From NCBI GenBank assembly GCA_002786855.1, contig PCUU01000024.1, positions 62,001-126,000 on the forward strand: 64,000 nt of DNA, written 5' to 3'. The position numbers were made by a program, and so were the translations under genes. Under the pieces are notes generated by a model, which searched no databases, was not told the origin of the DNA, and saw only the letters and a program-made list of their open reading frames with translations. Position 1 is the first letter of the stretch. Each line of letters opens with the position of its first letter. The DNA is from Cytophagales bacterium CG12_big_fil_rev_8_21_14_0_65_40_12. GTDB lineage: Bacteria > Bacteroidota > Bacteroidia > Cytophagales > Cyclobacteriaceae. Shown here in pieces: positions 17,301-22,930 of this stretch.

Positions 17301-18083
17301 TTAAACCCAATACTTCTGAATCATTTTGAGCATTTCAGGCTGCACCTGATTGCCTGCAATGATTTGTCGGCCAAAAAGAAAATCTGAGCCCCCTTTGAAA
17401 TCTGTTACCAAGCCACCTGCTTCTTTTACAATCAAAGCCCCAGCTGCAACATCCCATGGTTGGAGGTTATACTCGAAGAATCCTTCGAATCTACCACAGG
17501 CCGTATACACAAGATCGACAGCTGCGCTCCCCATTCTTCTCAGTCCATGCGTTCCTTTCATAAACTCATTTAAAATGGCCAAGTATTGCTGCATTTGGTC
17601 GAAGTTATAGTATGGAAAACCCGTTGCTAATAAGGCTTTATCAATGGTTTCGACAGGAGATACCTTTATTGCAAAGTGATTGAGGTAAGCACCTTGTCCT
17701 TTTACCGCATGAAAACATTCATCTCGATTGATTTCATAAACAACACCCAATACCAACTCGTTGCGTTTCATCAAGGCAATGGACACCGCAAAAACTGGGA
17801 CTCCGTGAGTGAAGTTGGTTGTACCATCCAAGGGATCGATGATCCAATTGTAAGTATCTGATTTTTTAGTAGACGTGCCTTCTTCGGCAATAAACCCCGA
17901 GCCAGGCAGTATGGCGTTCAAACCTTTGACAATACGCTTTTCTGCTTCCTTATCTACATAAGACACCAAGTCGTTTTTGCCTTTGTATTCAATTTTGGCC
18001 AAATCGAAATTTCTTGATTCTTGCCGAATGAATTCTCCGGTTTCTTTGGCAAGCACGATTACATCTTGAAGTAGCTGTTGCAT
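17301..18083 (-). CDS. suhB: inositol monophosphatase family protein
   Basis: Mg-dependent phosphatase of the inositol monophosphatase family, 260 residues. Metal-binding motifs are complete: FIAEEGTS near residue 70, WIIDPLDGTTNF near 85 and the C-terminal LQPWDVAAGALIVKEAGG near 210. Physiological substrates could be inositol phosphate, another sugar phosphate or 3'-phosphoadenosine phosphate. Sequence alone does not decide this, so the SuhB name is by resemblance. It lies 89 bp downstream of the four-gene amidoligase cluster on the same strand and could be read through from it. Confidence 0.9.
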   Translation of the reverse strand: MQQLLQDVIVLAKETGEFIRQESRNFDLAKIEYKGKNDLVSYVDKEAEKRIVKGLNAILPGSGFIAEEGTSTKKSDTYNWIIDPLDGTTNFTHGVPVFAVSIALMKRNELVLGVVYEINRDECFHAVKGQGAYLNHFAIKVSPVETIDKALLATGFPYYNFDQMQQYLAILNEFMKGTHGLRRMGSAAVDLVYTACGRFEGFFEYNLQPWDVAAGALIVKEAGGLVTDFKGGSDFLFGRQIIAGNQVQPEMLKMIQKYWV

Positions 18084-18172: not shown

Positions 18173-18868
18173 TTATTGTTTCAACGAAGCCAGCCCCTGT
18201 TGCAACAAAAAGCCAATAGAGGTTAATTCCTTATTAAAATGAAAGCGCTGATTAATTTCAATTTCAATCCCTGAGTAGTCTTTTATTGGATATTGTTTCC
18301 GTAAATAGGTGGTAAATCCATCGTCAGTGCCTTTATAAGGCTCATTCAAATCAATTGTTAGCAAGGGCGCAAGCGCCTGAAGTTTAGCCTGCAATTGCAG
18401 TGCGATCTTAGCTTCTGGTTTACGATCAGGGTCATATAAAATACCTATATCCGTTGTTCTTCTCTTTCCTTCCCAAATTGGAGTGAAAGAATGGATGGAA
18501 AAATGGGCCACTTCGAAATGATTTTCAATCGCCTTATTCACAGAAGCAACCACCGCTTTTCTATACGGATGATAGTATTTATCGAGAATGAAGGTTTTGA
18601 CAGAAGGTTCAAGCTCTTTACCATATTCACTAAAAAGTTGAGGGCTTTTTAAAGATCGGTTCGCTTCTACCAACAATCTGGAGGTTGTGTGCAAAAAGAC
18701 AGGAATGCCTAAAGCAGCACCCATTGCCGAGGCCACATTTGCGGCTCCTGGGTCCCAGCCACGATGCGATTTTATCTCGTCATCGGCATTTTTAAATAAG
18801 TATTTGTAGTTCTCAGGAATCTCATTTCCTGCGTGCTCGCATGTAATTATTAAGCTCCTTCGAGACAT
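18173..18868 (-). CDS. N-formylglutamate amidohydrolase-like protein
   Basis: A 231-residue zinc-type amidohydrolase of the N-formylglutamate amidohydrolase family. It opens with LIITCEHAGNEIPENY (first zinc ligand region), then HRGWDPGAANVA, TTSRLLVEANRS, and VAHFSIHSFTPIWEGKRR, the core of the family. In histidine utilisation such enzymes release glutamate from formylglutamate, but no hut genes are here. Instead its start overlaps the GCS2 ligase gene by 19 bp, in a cluster of amide-bond-forming enzymes. A role in hydrolysing or trimming a glutamyl amide product of this cluster is therefore more likely (inference). Confidence 0.88.
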   Translation of the reverse strand: MSRRSLIITCEHAGNEIPENYKYLFKNADDEIKSHRGWDPGAANVASAMGAALGIPVFLHTTSRLLVEANRSLKSPQLFSEYGKELEPSVKTFILDKYYHPYRKAVVASVNKAIENHFEVAHFSIHSFTPIWEGKRRTTDIGILYDPDRKPEAKIALQLQAKLQALAPLLTIDLNEPYKGTDDGFTTYLRKQYPIKDYSGIEIEINQRFHFNKELTSIGFLLQQGLASLKQ

Positions 18869-20112
18869 GGATTAAACATTTCGTTGTTTTCTAAACAGTC
18901 GGTCAACTCCCTGTAGACCATCTTTAAATTGCTATGTTCGCTATTATGGTCAACGCTTTCCAAAATTCTATTGGCCAAAGTGCCTTGATCTAATATCATG
19001 CGAATTTGAGTTTCCCATGGGCTAAGCCTTTCGGGATACAAGCCCATCAACTTTTGAAACATTTTCTTCCAAAAGTCGGAAGCGGTAACCTCTTCGCTGG
19101 CCTCAAATCCAAATGCCTTAAGGTAAGTCTTATCTCTGATTATAGAATGATCGGCATGACGAATTACATTCTTAAAGATTGCGTAGAGATCATTTGTTTT
19201 GAACTCATGCTGCTCTTCGGTGGTGAGACCTTTCTCATCGACCAACATTTGCAAAAAGGCAATTACCAAACTAGCAACCGCCAAATCTGCTGCTGGGCAC
19301 TCTTGAATATCAATGATACGAATTTCAATGGCTCCTCTATCAAATCGGGCAATTGCGCCACGTGAGTTCAGCCAAACAGGATCAAGTATTCCCTCTGGAT
19401 CGTAAGGTAAAATATCCTGTTCGATTTGACTGTGGATGTATTTGCGATAGGTCCTTCTCGAAAATACCGCCTCAGGAATCACCTTCCCCGTAAGGGACGG
19501 AATGAGCTTTTGATTGTTTTGATAGTAATCCAATCGCTTGTCCAGAAAACCTGTGAGTTGACCACCAATGATGGGCGAGCTAGCCGATAGGGCAGGTAAT
19601 AAAGGTAAAATCAATCTGATTGCTCCATGAAGTTTAGAGAATTCCTCATCGTCATAAAACGGTAGATTGATATGGGTGCTTTGCAAATTGCTCCAGCCAT
19701 GTCCTTTGCAGTTAAAGATTCTATCATAGGCAGCATAAATCTCCGCACTGTCGTGTGTCCATTGAAAAGATTCTGTTTCAGGATCCATCCAAGGATGAGC
19801 AGCACCAGGCATCAAACGCGCATTGAAGCTGCTCAAGAGCTCGTTCATTTGCTCAATTGCCTCCTGAAAATCCTGATTGAGCTGTACCAAATCGCTCACA
19901 GGCTTGGTACACTTCAGCTCTAATACATGCAATGCCAATTCGTTGGACCAGCTCACGCTACCCAAATTTACCTCCCCAATATATTCGCCTGTCAAAGCTT
20001 TAAAAACCTCATCGGCAATGGGCTTTACGTTGAGGGTTTCTATATCCACAATCATGTATTCTAGCTCTATTCCAAATGCTTCGAATAGATGCAGGCGGCT
20101 GACATTACTCAT
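18850..20112 (-). CDS. GCS2-type glutamate-cysteine ligase-like amidoligase
   Basis: A 420-residue carboxylate-amine ligase of the GCS2 (YbdK-like) family. It opens with FGIELEYMIVD, the family's metal-binding glutamates, followed by NLQSTHINLPF near residue 145 and RGAIEIRIIDIQECPAAD near 280. Such enzymes join the side-chain carboxyl of glutamate to an amine using ATP. Here the acceptor is unknown. The gene lies 5 bp downstream of the RimK-like ligase gene and overlaps the amidohydrolase gene, so all are co-translated. No glutathione synthetase is next to it, which argues against ordinary glutathione synthesis. Confidence 0.87.
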   Translation of the reverse strand: MSNVSRLHLFEAFGIELEYMIVDIETLNVKPIADEVFKALTGEYIGEVNLGSVSWSNELALHVLELKCTKPVSDLVQLNQDFQEAIEQMNELLSSFNARLMPGAAHPWMDPETESFQWTHDSAEIYAAYDRIFNCKGHGWSNLQSTHINLPFYDDEEFSKLHGAIRLILPLLPALSASSPIIGGQLTGFLDKRLDYYQNNQKLIPSLTGKVIPEAVFSRRTYRKYIHSQIEQDILPYDPEGILDPVWLNSRGAIARFDRGAIEIRIIDIQECPAADLAVASLVIAFLQMLVDEKGLTTEEQHEFKTNDLYAIFKNVIRHADHSIIRDKTYLKAFGFEASEEVTASDFWKKMFQKLMGLYPERLSPWETQIRMILDQGTLANRILESVDHNSEHSNLKMVYRELTDCLENNEMFNPCLEGA

Positions 20113-20117
20113 ATTGC

Positions 20118-21566
20118 TTAACTCATTTTAACTCTTTCGAAGATGATCTCCATGATTCGCTCATAGAGCCTATTTTTTATGATTCTATCTTCTACCCCGG
20201 CATCAATATTGGGGTTGTCGTTGATTTCAATAACGTAGAATTTACCGTTCACTTCTTTGACATCCACCCCATAGAGGCCGTCACCAATTAATCTTGTGGC
20301 TTTTAGCGCAGTTTGAAGCAAGCCCACCGGGGCTTGTTCCAGCGCAATGGTATCGGCATTTCCTTCAATATGTTTGTCCCCATCTTTCCAGTTCACAATT
20401 TGCCAATGATCTCTGGCCATGTGGTAACGACATACGTAAAGGGGTTCGTGGTTCATTATCCCTATTCTCCAATCAAAAGGAGTAGGCATAAACTCTTGTG
20501 CTATGAGCAGTTCCGAACCTTTAAAAAAGCCTTTCAAAAGGGCTTTGAGTTCAACATCATTACTTACTTTTTTGACGCCACGAGAAAAAGCACCATCGGG
20601 TTCTTTCAGAATAAAGGGATATTGAAGCTTTTCCGTTTCGGGCGTTGATTTGTCGCGTGAAATGATTGCCGATTTTGGAACGGGAATATTGTTGCTGGTC
20701 ATCAACTCATTCAAGTACACCTTATTGGTGCAGCGCAGAATCGAAGTTGGATCGTCTACCACTACCAAGCCTTCTGATTCAGCCTTTTTAGCGAAACGGA
20801 AAGTATAGTTGTTTACATTGGTGGTTTCGCGGATGAATAGTGCATCGAATTGGGTAAGACGGGCATATTCGTTTCTGGTAATGATTTCTGTGTTGAAGCC
20901 CGTTTTTTCGGCAGCCTTTACAAATTTCTGCAAGGCTTTGGCATTCGAAGGGGGGTTGTCATCCTCTGGGTTCACCAAAATAGCCAAATCATATTTTCTA
21001 CGGGGGTTACTCTTGCGCACGACCATTTTTCGCGTAAGAAATAAGCCCAGCTGCTGTGCAAGTGTGATTCTTTCCTCCTCGTCCAGATCGTAAATATTGA
21101 GTGGTTTAAGCTGCTCCAAAGCCCACTTTTCCTTCTTTACGAAGGTTACTTTTAGTATGGGCGATTGAAACAAGTTGAAAAGCAACAAACCTAATTTCCC
21201 AGTGTGTATACCGCCAGTGTAGCCAAAATAGATTTTGAATTCGACCTTGTTTTCTGGGCTACCCTTAAATGTTTTTTGGATCATTTCTGTAAAATCCTGC
21301 GCATCATCTTTGATCATGGCTGGGAAACGAAAATCTTGAATTGTGGCCACTTCGGGCAGCACCTTATGGTTGCGCGCCTCGGCCAAGAGCGACACGTAAT
21401 AGCCTGTGCTTTGGTATTGGTATGATTTACAAAGGTTAATGACCTTTACATTATTCAAGTGTCTTAAACCCTCATTTGCAAAGTATTCTCGCGCTGAGAT
21501 TACTTCCACACCTGGGATATTAAAGTTCCATTTCTTTGGGTTTTCTGTTACGATCAGTTTTGACAT
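20118..21566 (-). CDS. RimK-family ATP-grasp ligase with N-terminal extension
   Basis: A 482-residue ATP-grasp enzyme. The C-terminal 290 residues are the RimK-like fold: KVYLNELMTSNNIPVPKSAI, YPFILKEPDGAFSRGVKKV (ATP-binding Lys), LLIAQEFMPTPFDWRIGIM, and VIEINDNPNIDAG with the metal-binding Glu and Asn. The N-terminal 190 residues form a separate domain absent from E. coli RimK; it is common in the long RimK family protein group. The likely reaction is ATP-driven addition of an amino acid (often glutamate) to a carboxylate. It lies 2 bp after the C39-like peptidase gene and 5 bp before the GCS2 gene. Confidence 0.9.
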   Translation of the reverse strand: MSKLIVTENPKKWNFNIPGVEVISAREYFANEGLRHLNNVKVINLCKSYQYQSTGYYVSLLAEARNHKVLPEVATIQDFRFPAMIKDDAQDFTEMIQKTFKGSPENKVEFKIYFGYTGGIHTGKLGLLLFNLFQSPILKVTFVKKEKWALEQLKPLNIYDLDEEERITLAQQLGLFLTRKMVVRKSNPRRKYDLAILVNPEDDNPPSNAKALQKFVKAAEKTGFNTEIITRNEYARLTQFDALFIRETTNVNNYTFRFAKKAESEGLVVVDDPTSILRCTNKVYLNELMTSNNIPVPKSAIISRDKSTPETEKLQYPFILKEPDGAFSRGVKKVSNDVELKALLKGFFKGSELLIAQEFMPTPFDWRIGIMNHEPLYVCRYHMARDHWQIVNWKDGDKHIEGNADTIALEQAPVGLLQTALKATRLIGDGLYGVDVKEVNGKFYVIEINDNPNIDAGVEDRIIKNRLYERIMEIIFERVKMS

Positions 21567-21568
21567 TA

Positions 21569-22294
21569 CTACTGTTTTGTTCTGGGTTCAATTATTAAAA
21601 GATTGGAATCATAAGTAACAATACCAAGCATTATGGCATTGATTAATCTGCTAAAGTCCACTTGGTAATGATGGCCTCGATTTGTTGGGTTATTCTTTAA
21701 AGGGTCTGCAATATCTATCTGGCCAGTTTGCTCGTCATAACCATCCAAAATCACAAAATGGCCCACTGGTATTCCTCTTACATCATCATATTCTGTTTCA
21801 AATTCCCCAATCTCGCGCTTGCTTCCATATAAGTAGGTAGCGCTCAGCCCAGTAAGCACTGGGCGCCTTTCCTGCAAATACGTTTTAATGAGCGCAGGGG
21901 TCAGGTCTTGAAACTTGATTTTGCCACCCATTTTCAAAAACTTAATATAAGCATTCGAGGCATATTTAATTTTGCGCTGAACTTTGTACTCGCTCTGCAA
22001 AGTCAATTTCTGAATAAGGTCTGTGGATGGATCGTCAAACCAAGATGGGTCAAATAAATGGAGATTATAGGTGTAAATTGTGGCCTGATAACCTCTCTTC
22101 AAAGCATGATTACCAAGGTTTACAGCGAGTGTGCCGCCACTCTTCAATTGCTTTACTTGTCCGATTAAACCCGATAGATCAACAAAGTCATCGTAGTATT
22201 GATAAACCGCCTGCAAGCAAGTTGGGCCGCAAGTAGAATCGGTAGGTTGCGAAAGTATATCAATTCCTAAAAAGGCCTTATCAGAAACAGTCAT
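21569..22294 (-). CDS. C39-like papain-fold peptidase
   Basis: A 241-residue protein with a bacteriocin-processing (C39-like) papain fold. The full active-site set is visible: Gln16 and Cys22 in SQPTDSTCGPTCLQ, His179 in PVGHFVILDGYD and Asp197 in IADPLK. No signal peptide or transporter domain is attached, so it is probably a cytosolic peptidase or transpeptidase. It is the first gene of the amidoligase cluster (2-bp gap to the RimK-like gene) and divergent from an ECF sigma gene 69 bp away. By context it may cleave or transfer a peptide made or modified by the ligases. That is inference. Confidence 0.85.
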   Translation of the reverse strand: MTVSDKAFLGIDILSQPTDSTCGPTCLQAVYQYYDDFVDLSGLIGQVKQLKSGGTLAVNLGNHALKRGYQATIYTYNLHLFDPSWFDDPSTDLIQKLTLQSEYKVQRKIKYASNAYIKFLKMGGKIKFQDLTPALIKTYLQERRPVLTGLSATYLYGSKREIGEFETEYDDVRGIPVGHFVILDGYDEQTGQIDIADPLKNNPTNRGHHYQVDFSRLINAIMLGIVTYDSNLLIIEPRTKQ

Positions 22295-22363: not shown

Positions 22364-22930
22364 ATGATCAACAGCGACCACCTTTCAGACGAAGAAGTAA
22401 TCGCCCTACTCAAGGCGGGCGGACATGATCGCTATTTTGCTGTGCTTACTCTACGCTACGAAAACTATATTATCAAAAAATGCAAAAGCTATGTGAAGGA
22501 TGAAGATGAAGCGGAAGACCTCTGTCAGGAAATTCTGATCAAGATTTTTATGCAGATAAAGGACTTTCGCAGCGAAGCCAAATTCAAAACTTGGCTCTAT
22601 TCTATTATTCACAATACCTGCGTTGATTATTTAAGAAAGGAAAAGAATAAAAGCCACAAGGTAATTTCCGAAAAGCTTCAAGAAGAAATGGCCGATCTGG
22701 TAGATGAAGATATTGTGAACTTCGAAAGTCTTGAAATGGCACTTTTTCAATTGCTCGAAGAAATTACCCCTGAAGAAAAGTTAATTCTACTTTTGAAATA
22801 CAAGGAAAAGCATTCCATCAAAGAAATCGAAACCACATTGGGAATTTCTGAAAGTGCTGTGAAAATGCGGCTTTCAAGGGCCAAGGAAAAAATCAATAAG
22901 CTCTACGCCAAAAACCAGCGTTTGCATTAA
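22364..22930 (+). CDS. ECF RNA polymerase sigma factor
   Basis: A 188-residue extracytoplasmic-function sigma factor. Region 2 is at about 25-90 (YENYIIKKCKSYVKDEDEAEDLCQEI, then FKTWLYSIIHNTCVDYLR). Region 4 is at about 125-180 (ITPEEKLILLLKYKEKHSIKEI, LGISESAVKMRLSRAK). No anti-sigma gene follows; the next gene is convergent. It is divergent from the amidoligase cluster with only 69 bp between them, so it might control that cluster, itself, or neither. The ATG at 22364 is the natural start. Confidence 0.92.
   Translation: MINSDHLSDEEVIALLKAGGHDRYFAVLTLRYENYIIKKCKSYVKDEDEAEDLCQEILIKIFMQIKDFRSEAKFKTWLYSIIHNTCVDYLRKEKNKSHKVISEKLQEEMADLVDEDIVNFESLEMALFQLLEEITPEEKLILLLKYKEKHSIKEIETTLGISESAVKMRLSRAKEKINKLYAKNQRLH

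Follow-up and report, generated by a model that had tools for sequence, protein, structure and literature searches.

What product could be made by a gene cluster that combines two amide-forming ligases with a papain-fold enzyme and an N-formylglutamate amidohydrolase-family (FGase) hydrolase? This question is raised by four adjacent minus-strand genes in a 64,000-nucleotide stretch of DNA (the window) from Cytophagales bacterium CG12_big_fil_rev_8_21_14_0_65_40_12 (contig PCUU01000024.1, positions 62,001 to 126,000), whose genome assembly comprises 4.06 Mb in 99 contigs and is 99.09% complete. We propose that the four genes form a single operon whose products assemble a small peptide with a blocked amino end by a non-ribosomal route driven by ATP, a proposal to which we give an even chance. 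We read the system as one peptide-ligase core served by interchangeable enzymes for N-capping, together with a papain-like enzyme (transacylase or peptidase) and a hydrolase of the FGase family.

Four amidoligase-associated genes recur in the same order

The first gene of the run (21569-22294) encodes a C39-like papain-fold cysteine enzyme of 241 amino acids, a predicted transacylase or peptidase (Pfam Peptidase_C39_2, E-value 5.7e-09). It is followed after 2 bp by the gene for the predicted core enzyme (20118-21566), a 482-amino acid protein composed of an RLAN domain (1.4e-42) and a RimK-like ATP-grasp amide ligase (1.5e-07); after a further 5 bp by the gene for a 420-amino acid GCS2-family carboxylate-amine ligase (18850-20112; 9.1e-27) predicted to act in N-capping; and, overlapping the latter by 19 bp, by the gene for a 231-amino acid FGase-family hydrolase (18173-18868; 2.2e-24) with a predicted role in uncapping, editing or salvage. 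All four families scored above their Pfam cut-offs, as an initial annotation of this DNA had assigned them, and its coordinates, strand, gaps, overlap and 69-bp distance to a divergent sigma factor gene were exact. The ATP-grasp assignment of the ligase was likewise confirmed (RimK, 31.6 bits against a cut-off of 21), but the annotation had not named the separate N-terminal RLAN domain (PF14401), which scored 145.3 bits against a cut-off of 25.

We compared this locus with RLAN loci from other genomes. A scan of genome contigs supplied 24 loci, and RLAN matches were found in 44 of 395 genomes of the window's own phylum, 72 of 398 genomes in the phylum of a Legionellaceae metagenome-assembled genome (MAG; L022), and 26 of 196 genomes in that of an Archaeoglobaceae MAG (L025); the latter two sets are called Pseudomonadota and archaeal after these MAGs. 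Neighborhoods were examined for 40 of the 43 other matching own-phylum genomes (G155 and G370, which had weak matches, and G235 were left out), 45 of the 72 Pseudomonadota matches, 14 of the 26 archaeal matches, and 5 of 13 plasmid records. Together with the contig-scan loci and the window, these made 129 RLAN loci, for which genes were counted within 5.5 kb around the ligase. Contig ends truncate some loci, which makes gene-set counts lower bounds, and many loci are close relatives or identical (such as L008 and L088, or L020 and L085) and do not count as independent events. In the contig scan, the nearest named relatives were Roseivirga species, with 87-88% identity in the ligase, and the window's own genome held one RLAN match, one FGase match and two GCS2 matches.

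Among the 44 bacterial GCS2-type loci, C39 was present in 39, FGase in 35, and all four genes in 30. When the window, contig, own-phylum and plasmid sets were pooled, neighboring genes lay in the same order and within 60 nt of each other at 36 of 39 C39-RLAN joints, 40 of 45 RLAN-GCS2 joints, and 34 of 35 GCS2-FGase joints, while the RLAN-GCS2 joint was this tight in only 1 of 7 cases in the archaeal set. Because the same order with tight joints recurs, the operon appears to be more than a chance arrangement. A Chlamydiae MAG (L023) had all four genes in a different order, and an annotated plasmid of Legionella adelaidensis (L103) carried the ligase, GCS2 and FGase genes without C39. The set thus recurs within the window's phylum and at these two loci outside it, supporting the earlier description of a conserved amidoligase neighborhood with an undefined product.

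The catalytic motifs that the initial annotation had described as intact were conserved in nearly all relatives in family alignments of the fetched loci: Gln16, Cys22, His179 and Asp197 of the C39-like protein in 38 of 38 sequences, Glu16 and Glu18 of the GCS2 ELEY motif in 52 of 52, Cys10-Glu11-His12 of the FGase-family protein in 34 of 34, and Glu447, Asn449 and Asn451 of the ATP-grasp domain in 115, 114 and 113 of 115, respectively. Given this conservation, the four enzymes look functional, with the roles of these residues taken from family knowledge.

The RLAN ligase is accompanied by either GCS2 or a GNAT

A GCS2 or GNAT partner was present in 117 of the 129 RLAN loci, and no locus had both. 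Specifically, 52 loci had GCS2 (the window, which also has C39, among them), 44 had a neighboring GNAT, 21 had a GNAT fused to the ligase, and 12 had neither. GNAT matches weaker than 1e-24 were left uncounted; they occur at five loci, all in the class with neither partner (L022, L104, L157, L158 and L160), and the one at L104 (3.3e-19) may be a true partner. In the own phylum, each of the 44 matching genomes had a single RLAN match, and the 40 fetched loci divided into 28 with GCS2 and 12 with a fused GNAT, with no others.

The three fused GNAT-RLAN-ATP-grasp proteins that were scanned measured 642-718 amino acids. In the Pseudomonadota set, a GNAT open reading frame (ORF) of at least 320 amino acids was found in 33 of 45 loci, and the same ORF carried a DUF3335 domain in 32 of 45 when a DUF3335 profile was used; the window-type C39 profile misses most of these domains (2 of 45 loci). 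The presence of DUF3335 on the GNAT protein was confirmed with Pfam in all five cases checked. This domain is homologous to the window's C39-like protein (hhalign probability 96.6, E-value 6.3e-10), and the alignment pairs their Cys, His and Asp regions. Whichever partner the ligase has, a C39-like domain is thus found with it, the fused form excepted. In the three proteins scanned, RimI was the best-scoring NCBIfam model for the GNAT part (79.3 bits in L146, where the cut-off is 86.4).

Partner changes were counted on two trees of the ligase. For the first, made with FastTree, partners were assigned within 3 kb, and 132 ligase rows (two of them, L058_6054 and L154_11680, doubtful) comprised 54 with GCS2, 44 with a GNAT nearby, 21 with a fused GNAT, and 13 with neither; the partner changed at least three times. 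For the second, made with IQ-TREE, the 132 rows were reduced to 94 by manual removal of five long-branch or partial rows and two duplicates and by thinning of similar rows, and the partner changed at least twice. The trees differ from each other in detail, and the change counts do not show which partner came first.

In 11 of 11 archaeal loci (L154-L164), the RLAN/ATP-grasp profile was split over two neighboring ORFs; one BLAST cluster, which matched the CxxCxxCC family (PF03692) in the single member scanned, lay near the ligase in all 11, and GCS2 was present in seven. In a Legionellaceae MAG, three RLAN ligases stand in tandem (L138) and another is encoded at a separate locus (L022); neither GCS2 nor a strong GNAT match was found near them. 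Six loci with GNAT-type ligases (L125, L127, L129, L131, L132 and L147) shared a further BLAST cluster, which contained DUF2817 in the two members scanned. We take DUF2817 to be M14-peptidase-like, and this gene is a possible stand-in for FGase at GNAT-type loci.

The ligase lacks a clear partner-specific signature

The initial annotation had suggested structure prediction of the N-terminal part of the ligase. The full-length protein was modeled with a predicted local distance difference test (pLDDT) score of 82.8, and the best 50 of 1278 fold matches (E-value 10 or better) relate only to its ATP-grasp part: all were ATP-grasp ligases (270-322 residues), including D-Ala-D-Ala ligase, LysX/ArgX (TM-score up to 0.84) and RimK, and none was a structural relative of the RLAN domain. 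The ATP-grasp half is predicted from this model to be a carboxylate-activating amide ligase. Although the window ligase shares its fold with RimK, LysX and ArgX, it has the extra RLAN domain and scores below the models of these subfamilies (71 bits against 143.4 for RimK, TIGR00768, and 71.2 against 275.6 for LysX). A likely canonical RimK is encoded elsewhere in the genome (C65; 226.9 bits), with a stronger PF08443 match than that of the operon ligase.

We then compared conserved alignment columns between ligases with different partners, using rows of at least 430 amino acids (41 with GCS2, 21 fused and 44 with a GNAT nearby), a threshold that leaves out most archaeal rows. The same residue was held at 90% or more in all three partner groups in 69 columns, and no column was conserved at 85% yet different between GCS2-linked and GNAT-fused rows. 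When the threshold was lowered to 80%, four columns differed between GCS2-linked and fused rows and two between GCS2-linked rows and those with a GNAT nearby, compared with nine between two GCS2 clades. The ligase therefore appears to have no clear partner-specific residue signature, which does not prove that its substrates are identical. From this lack of clear partner-specific columns we infer that the ligase would catalyze the same reaction with either partner, and that GCS2 or the GNAT would act on its product or on a part that the ligase does not read. The partner rule permits a direct test, with one ligase, two exchangeable capping enzymes, and one predicted shared intermediate.

Fold and family comparisons of the C39-like, GCS2 and FGase proteins

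The model of the C39-like protein was of moderate quality (pLDDT 73.3). Its best fold matches were the pseudomurein endoisopeptidase PeiR and, second, CtaG of closthioamide synthesis (E-value 2.3e-02, not significant), with cathepsins close behind; the DUF3335 profile matched CtaG with an E-value of only 0.12. CtaG has been proposed to be a papain-fold peptidyl transferase in the assembly of the closthioamide backbone (excerpt of PMC6772006), a proposed case of papain-fold acyl transfer; closthioamide synthesis differs in that no carrier protein is encoded among the window's four genes. Papain-fold enzymes grouped near these families include phytochelatin synthase and the acyltransferase BtrH, a precedent for papain-fold acyl transfer (excerpts of PMC10318531). 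The C39-like family named by the initial annotation was confirmed, but the protease role attached to it is not required: the protein need not be a protease, since its fold includes acyltransferases.

None of the nine NCBIfam models listed for the GCS2 protein was matched at its cut-off. When scored as a glutamate-cysteine ligase, the protein obtained 48.7 bits against 249.05 (TIGR02048) and, as its best score, 77 against 371 (NF010039); with the YbdK model it obtained 68.2 against 176.4. A separate YbdK-type carboxylate-amine ligase is encoded elsewhere in the genome at C95 (517.3 bits, cut-off 371). It lies in a second amidoligase-like cluster (G000:C95; L165:4105-9136) together with an esterase-like gene and a RimK-like ATP-grasp protein of 349 amino acids that scores below the subfamily cut-off; the cluster also encodes a class-I glutamine amidotransferase and a 398-amino acid protein with a weak, below-cut-off ATP-grasp match. 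The FGase-family protein is not HutG (17.7 bits against 278.75 for TIGR02017), and the closest relative with a solved structure is the hypothetical protein Atu2144 (2odf; profile E-value 4.2e-36).

A possible pathway to a capped peptide

In the pathway that we propose, the RLAN/RimK-like ATP-grasp ligase would form the central peptide bond, activating a carboxylate with ATP, and GCS2 would cap the amine end with a carboxylate, of the glutamate type by its family. In other lineages, the corresponding cap would be an acyl group attached by a RimI-like GNAT. The C39-like enzyme may transfer or trim an acyl or peptidyl group via Cys22, and the FGase-family hydrolase may take the cap off for editing or turnover. 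We infer the substrates, the order of the steps, a free product rather than a protein tag, and a cytoplasmic site. The suggestion of the initial annotation that the set produces, trims and perhaps transfers a glutamyl-containing peptide stands in this form as a prediction, with trimming by C39 no longer a necessary part of it.

Beyond this operon, it is possible, though on balance doubtful, that Bacteroidota, Pseudomonadota and archaea all build an identical inner peptide with one ancient RLAN/ATP-grasp core, in most cases accompanied by a papain-fold transacylase, and that the cap alone is swapped (gamma-glutamyl-type by GCS2, acyl by the RimI-like GNAT). If so, this would amount to an undiscovered and widespread class of N-capped peptides whose diversity comes from exchange of the cap and not from change of the backbone, and the peptide might be metal- or redox-active, given the CxxCxxCC neighbor in archaea.

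A number of observations weigh against the capped-peptide proposal. Glutamate in the product is read from family names, and the product of loci with a GNAT instead of GCS2 need not carry a glutamyl cap. RimK, a protein modifier, is among the closest ligase folds, so the fold does not favor a free product. Some alignment columns of the ligase differ between partner types at 60-70% conservation, and the missing signature columns are weak evidence in any case, as specificity could sit in variable loops. The set of genes itself varies: neither partner was found in 12 of the 129 loci, including 7 of the 14 in the archaeal set, and the 21 GNAT-fused loci had no window-type C39 and no FGase nearby, and DUF3335 in only one (L145). 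Since FGase was absent from nine and C39 from three of the 28 own-phylum GCS2-type loci, both look non-essential to the core. Finally, the C39 model had no match in the PDB at an E-value of 0.001 or better, the C39 sequence profile finds C39 peptidase domains (1.9e-04), and neither structure nor sequence comparison separates a transacylase from a protease.

Alternative explanations for the operon

The alternative that survives best is protein tagging, which we consider rather improbable: the RLAN/ATP-grasp ligase would extend a protein with amino acids in the manner of RimK on ribosomal protein S6, GCS2 or the GNAT would cap the tag, and C39 and FGase would remove it. Consistent with this, the best 50 fold matches include, beside D-Ala-D-Ala ligase, the LysX/ArgX and RimK ligases that act on protein C-termini, and RimI, the best-scoring model for the GNAT part of three relatives, caps a protein N-terminus. 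Furthermore, a gene for DUF155, a family that includes RMND1, was found near 10 of the 129 loci, five of these neighbors having been confirmed with Pfam and the rest assigned by BLAST clustering only. In contrast, clustering of the neighbors revealed no candidate target gene that recurs beside the operon across lineages, the likely canonical RimK is encoded elsewhere in the genome, DUF155 occurs in few lineages, and the window's genome had no DUF155 match. The loci with DUF155 (RMND1/Sif2-Sif3) are L086, L089, L091, L125, L127, L129, L131, L132, L166 and L168, and comprise own-phylum loci of the GCS2 type and Pseudomonadota loci of the GNAT type. DUF155 was detected in only 7 of 118 sampled own-phylum genomes, and in one genome (G070) DUF155 and RLAN were on different contigs.

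A thiol pathway resembling that of glutathione or phytochelatin is less probable still, and we regard it as unlikely. GCS2 would make a gamma-glutamyl thiol, the ATP-grasp ligase would extend it, and the papain-fold enzyme would transfer units in the way of phytochelatin synthase. The amine of cysteine is blocked in both glutathione and mycothiol, and either GCS2 or a GNAT could do so; the same trio of GCS2, ATP-grasp and papain-like folds would be involved, with phytochelatin synthase among the papain-like families mentioned above, and archaeal versions of the locus have the CxxCxxCC-family protein nearby. Glutathione synthesis by a GCS2-type GshA and GshB shares the GCS2 and ATP-grasp folds with the window, which has C39 and FGase in addition. 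Against this, the GCS2 protein scored under every glutamate-cysteine ligase cut-off listed. A search of the genome that did not extend to the eukaryote-type synthetase found no GshB/GshF-type enzyme: TIGR01435 had no match, and PF02955 exceeded its cut-off only at the RimK-like place (79.4 bits, compared with 226.9 for RimK there), with another match below it. Based on the GCS2 scores and the lack of a GshB/GshF-type match, glutathione is an unlikely product of the operon. The outcomes that the initial annotation had named as refuting its reading, a lack of conserved co-occurrence or a GCS2 enzyme that simply supplies gamma-glutamylcysteine for glutathione, were not borne out.

It is very improbable that the genes serve separate, ordinary amino acid metabolism, with the FGase-family protein as the deformylase of histidine degradation and GCS2 as a YbdK-like enzyme. 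Although the family names suggest these roles, this explanation is disfavored by the HutG and YbdK scores given above and by the tight gene order common to many genomes. We give almost no credence to a graspetide-like ribosomally synthesized and post-translationally modified peptide (RiPP), in which the ATP-grasp enzyme would cyclize a ribosomal precursor and the C39 peptidase would cleave it. Although both families occur in RiPP clusters (PMC8939145), the 2- and 5-bp gaps leave no room for a precursor inside the operon. Of the families shared among 456 small ORFs (20-90 amino acids, within 2.5 kb, at 43 GCS2-type rows), the eight widest were each limited to one close group, the widest spanning five loci at most (Roseivirga-type) and another three (L064, L066 and L076).

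Relation to known systems

RLAN matches occur in all three phylum samples, yet no product has been named for them in the open-licence literature that we searched, in which no paper contained PF14401, its long name or "RLAN domain", and just one contained PF11814 (DUF3335). Iyer, Abhiman, Burroughs and Aravind reportedly described RLAN neighborhoods with GNAT-papain fusions, GCS2 and a metal-cluster protein in 2009, and the Pfam text for PF14401 is said to mention RLAN-ATP-grasp proteins with GCS2, a GNAT fused to a papain-like domain, peptidases and a metal-cluster protein. The window shares with this class an RLAN domain fused to ATP-grasp, a GCS2 neighbor and a papain-like domain. On the reported content of the 2009 description, the operon thus belongs to an already known but uncharacterized class of neighborhoods. 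The exclusive pairing with GCS2 or GNAT beside an unchanged ligase would add to that description, subject to what Iyer et al. 2009 contains; we did not meet this pairing in the open-licence literature, where no search was aimed at it.

The known system that works most like our proposal is the synthesis of N-acetylglutaminylglutamine amide, a capped dipeptide, by Ngg, which combines a GNAT with an ATP-grasp part in one protein. The window differs in having GCS2 in place of the GNAT, and no asparagine synthase is encoded among its four genes. The full-length Ngg model (TIGR03103) was not among the best 25 of 39 families for the window's ATP-grasp protein, nor was it listed for the GNAT-RLAN fusion L014, and it was matched only by the GNAT part of one relative (41.9 bits against 569). 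Ngg, of the asnO-ngg system (PA3459-PA3461), is described as a GNAT-family ligase that both acetylates and ligates, with a peptidase gene in the same operon (excerpt of PMC8070244). The DUF3335-GNAT fusions are themselves attributed to Iyer et al. 2009 (excerpt of PMC10318531).

Neighboring genes

The divergent gene 69 bp from the C39 gene encodes an extracytoplasmic function (ECF) sigma factor (22364-22930, plus strand; Sigma-70 regions 2 and 4). A divergent ECF gene also flanks the operon in L006-L009 and L088, whereas L002-L004, the closest relatives, have none there. Because its position is not conserved, this gene is not a constant part of the operon and is probably incidental to the system. 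A scan for promoters and terminators returned sites that were no commoner than in shuffled sequence. An inositol-monophosphatase-family gene lies near the ligase in the window (17301-18083) and is found downstream in Roseivirga-type operons. A gene of this family is also present upstream in eight GNAT-fused loci (for example, L020) and in three archaeal loci; L087 and L094 are among the carriers, and three members were scanned with Pfam.

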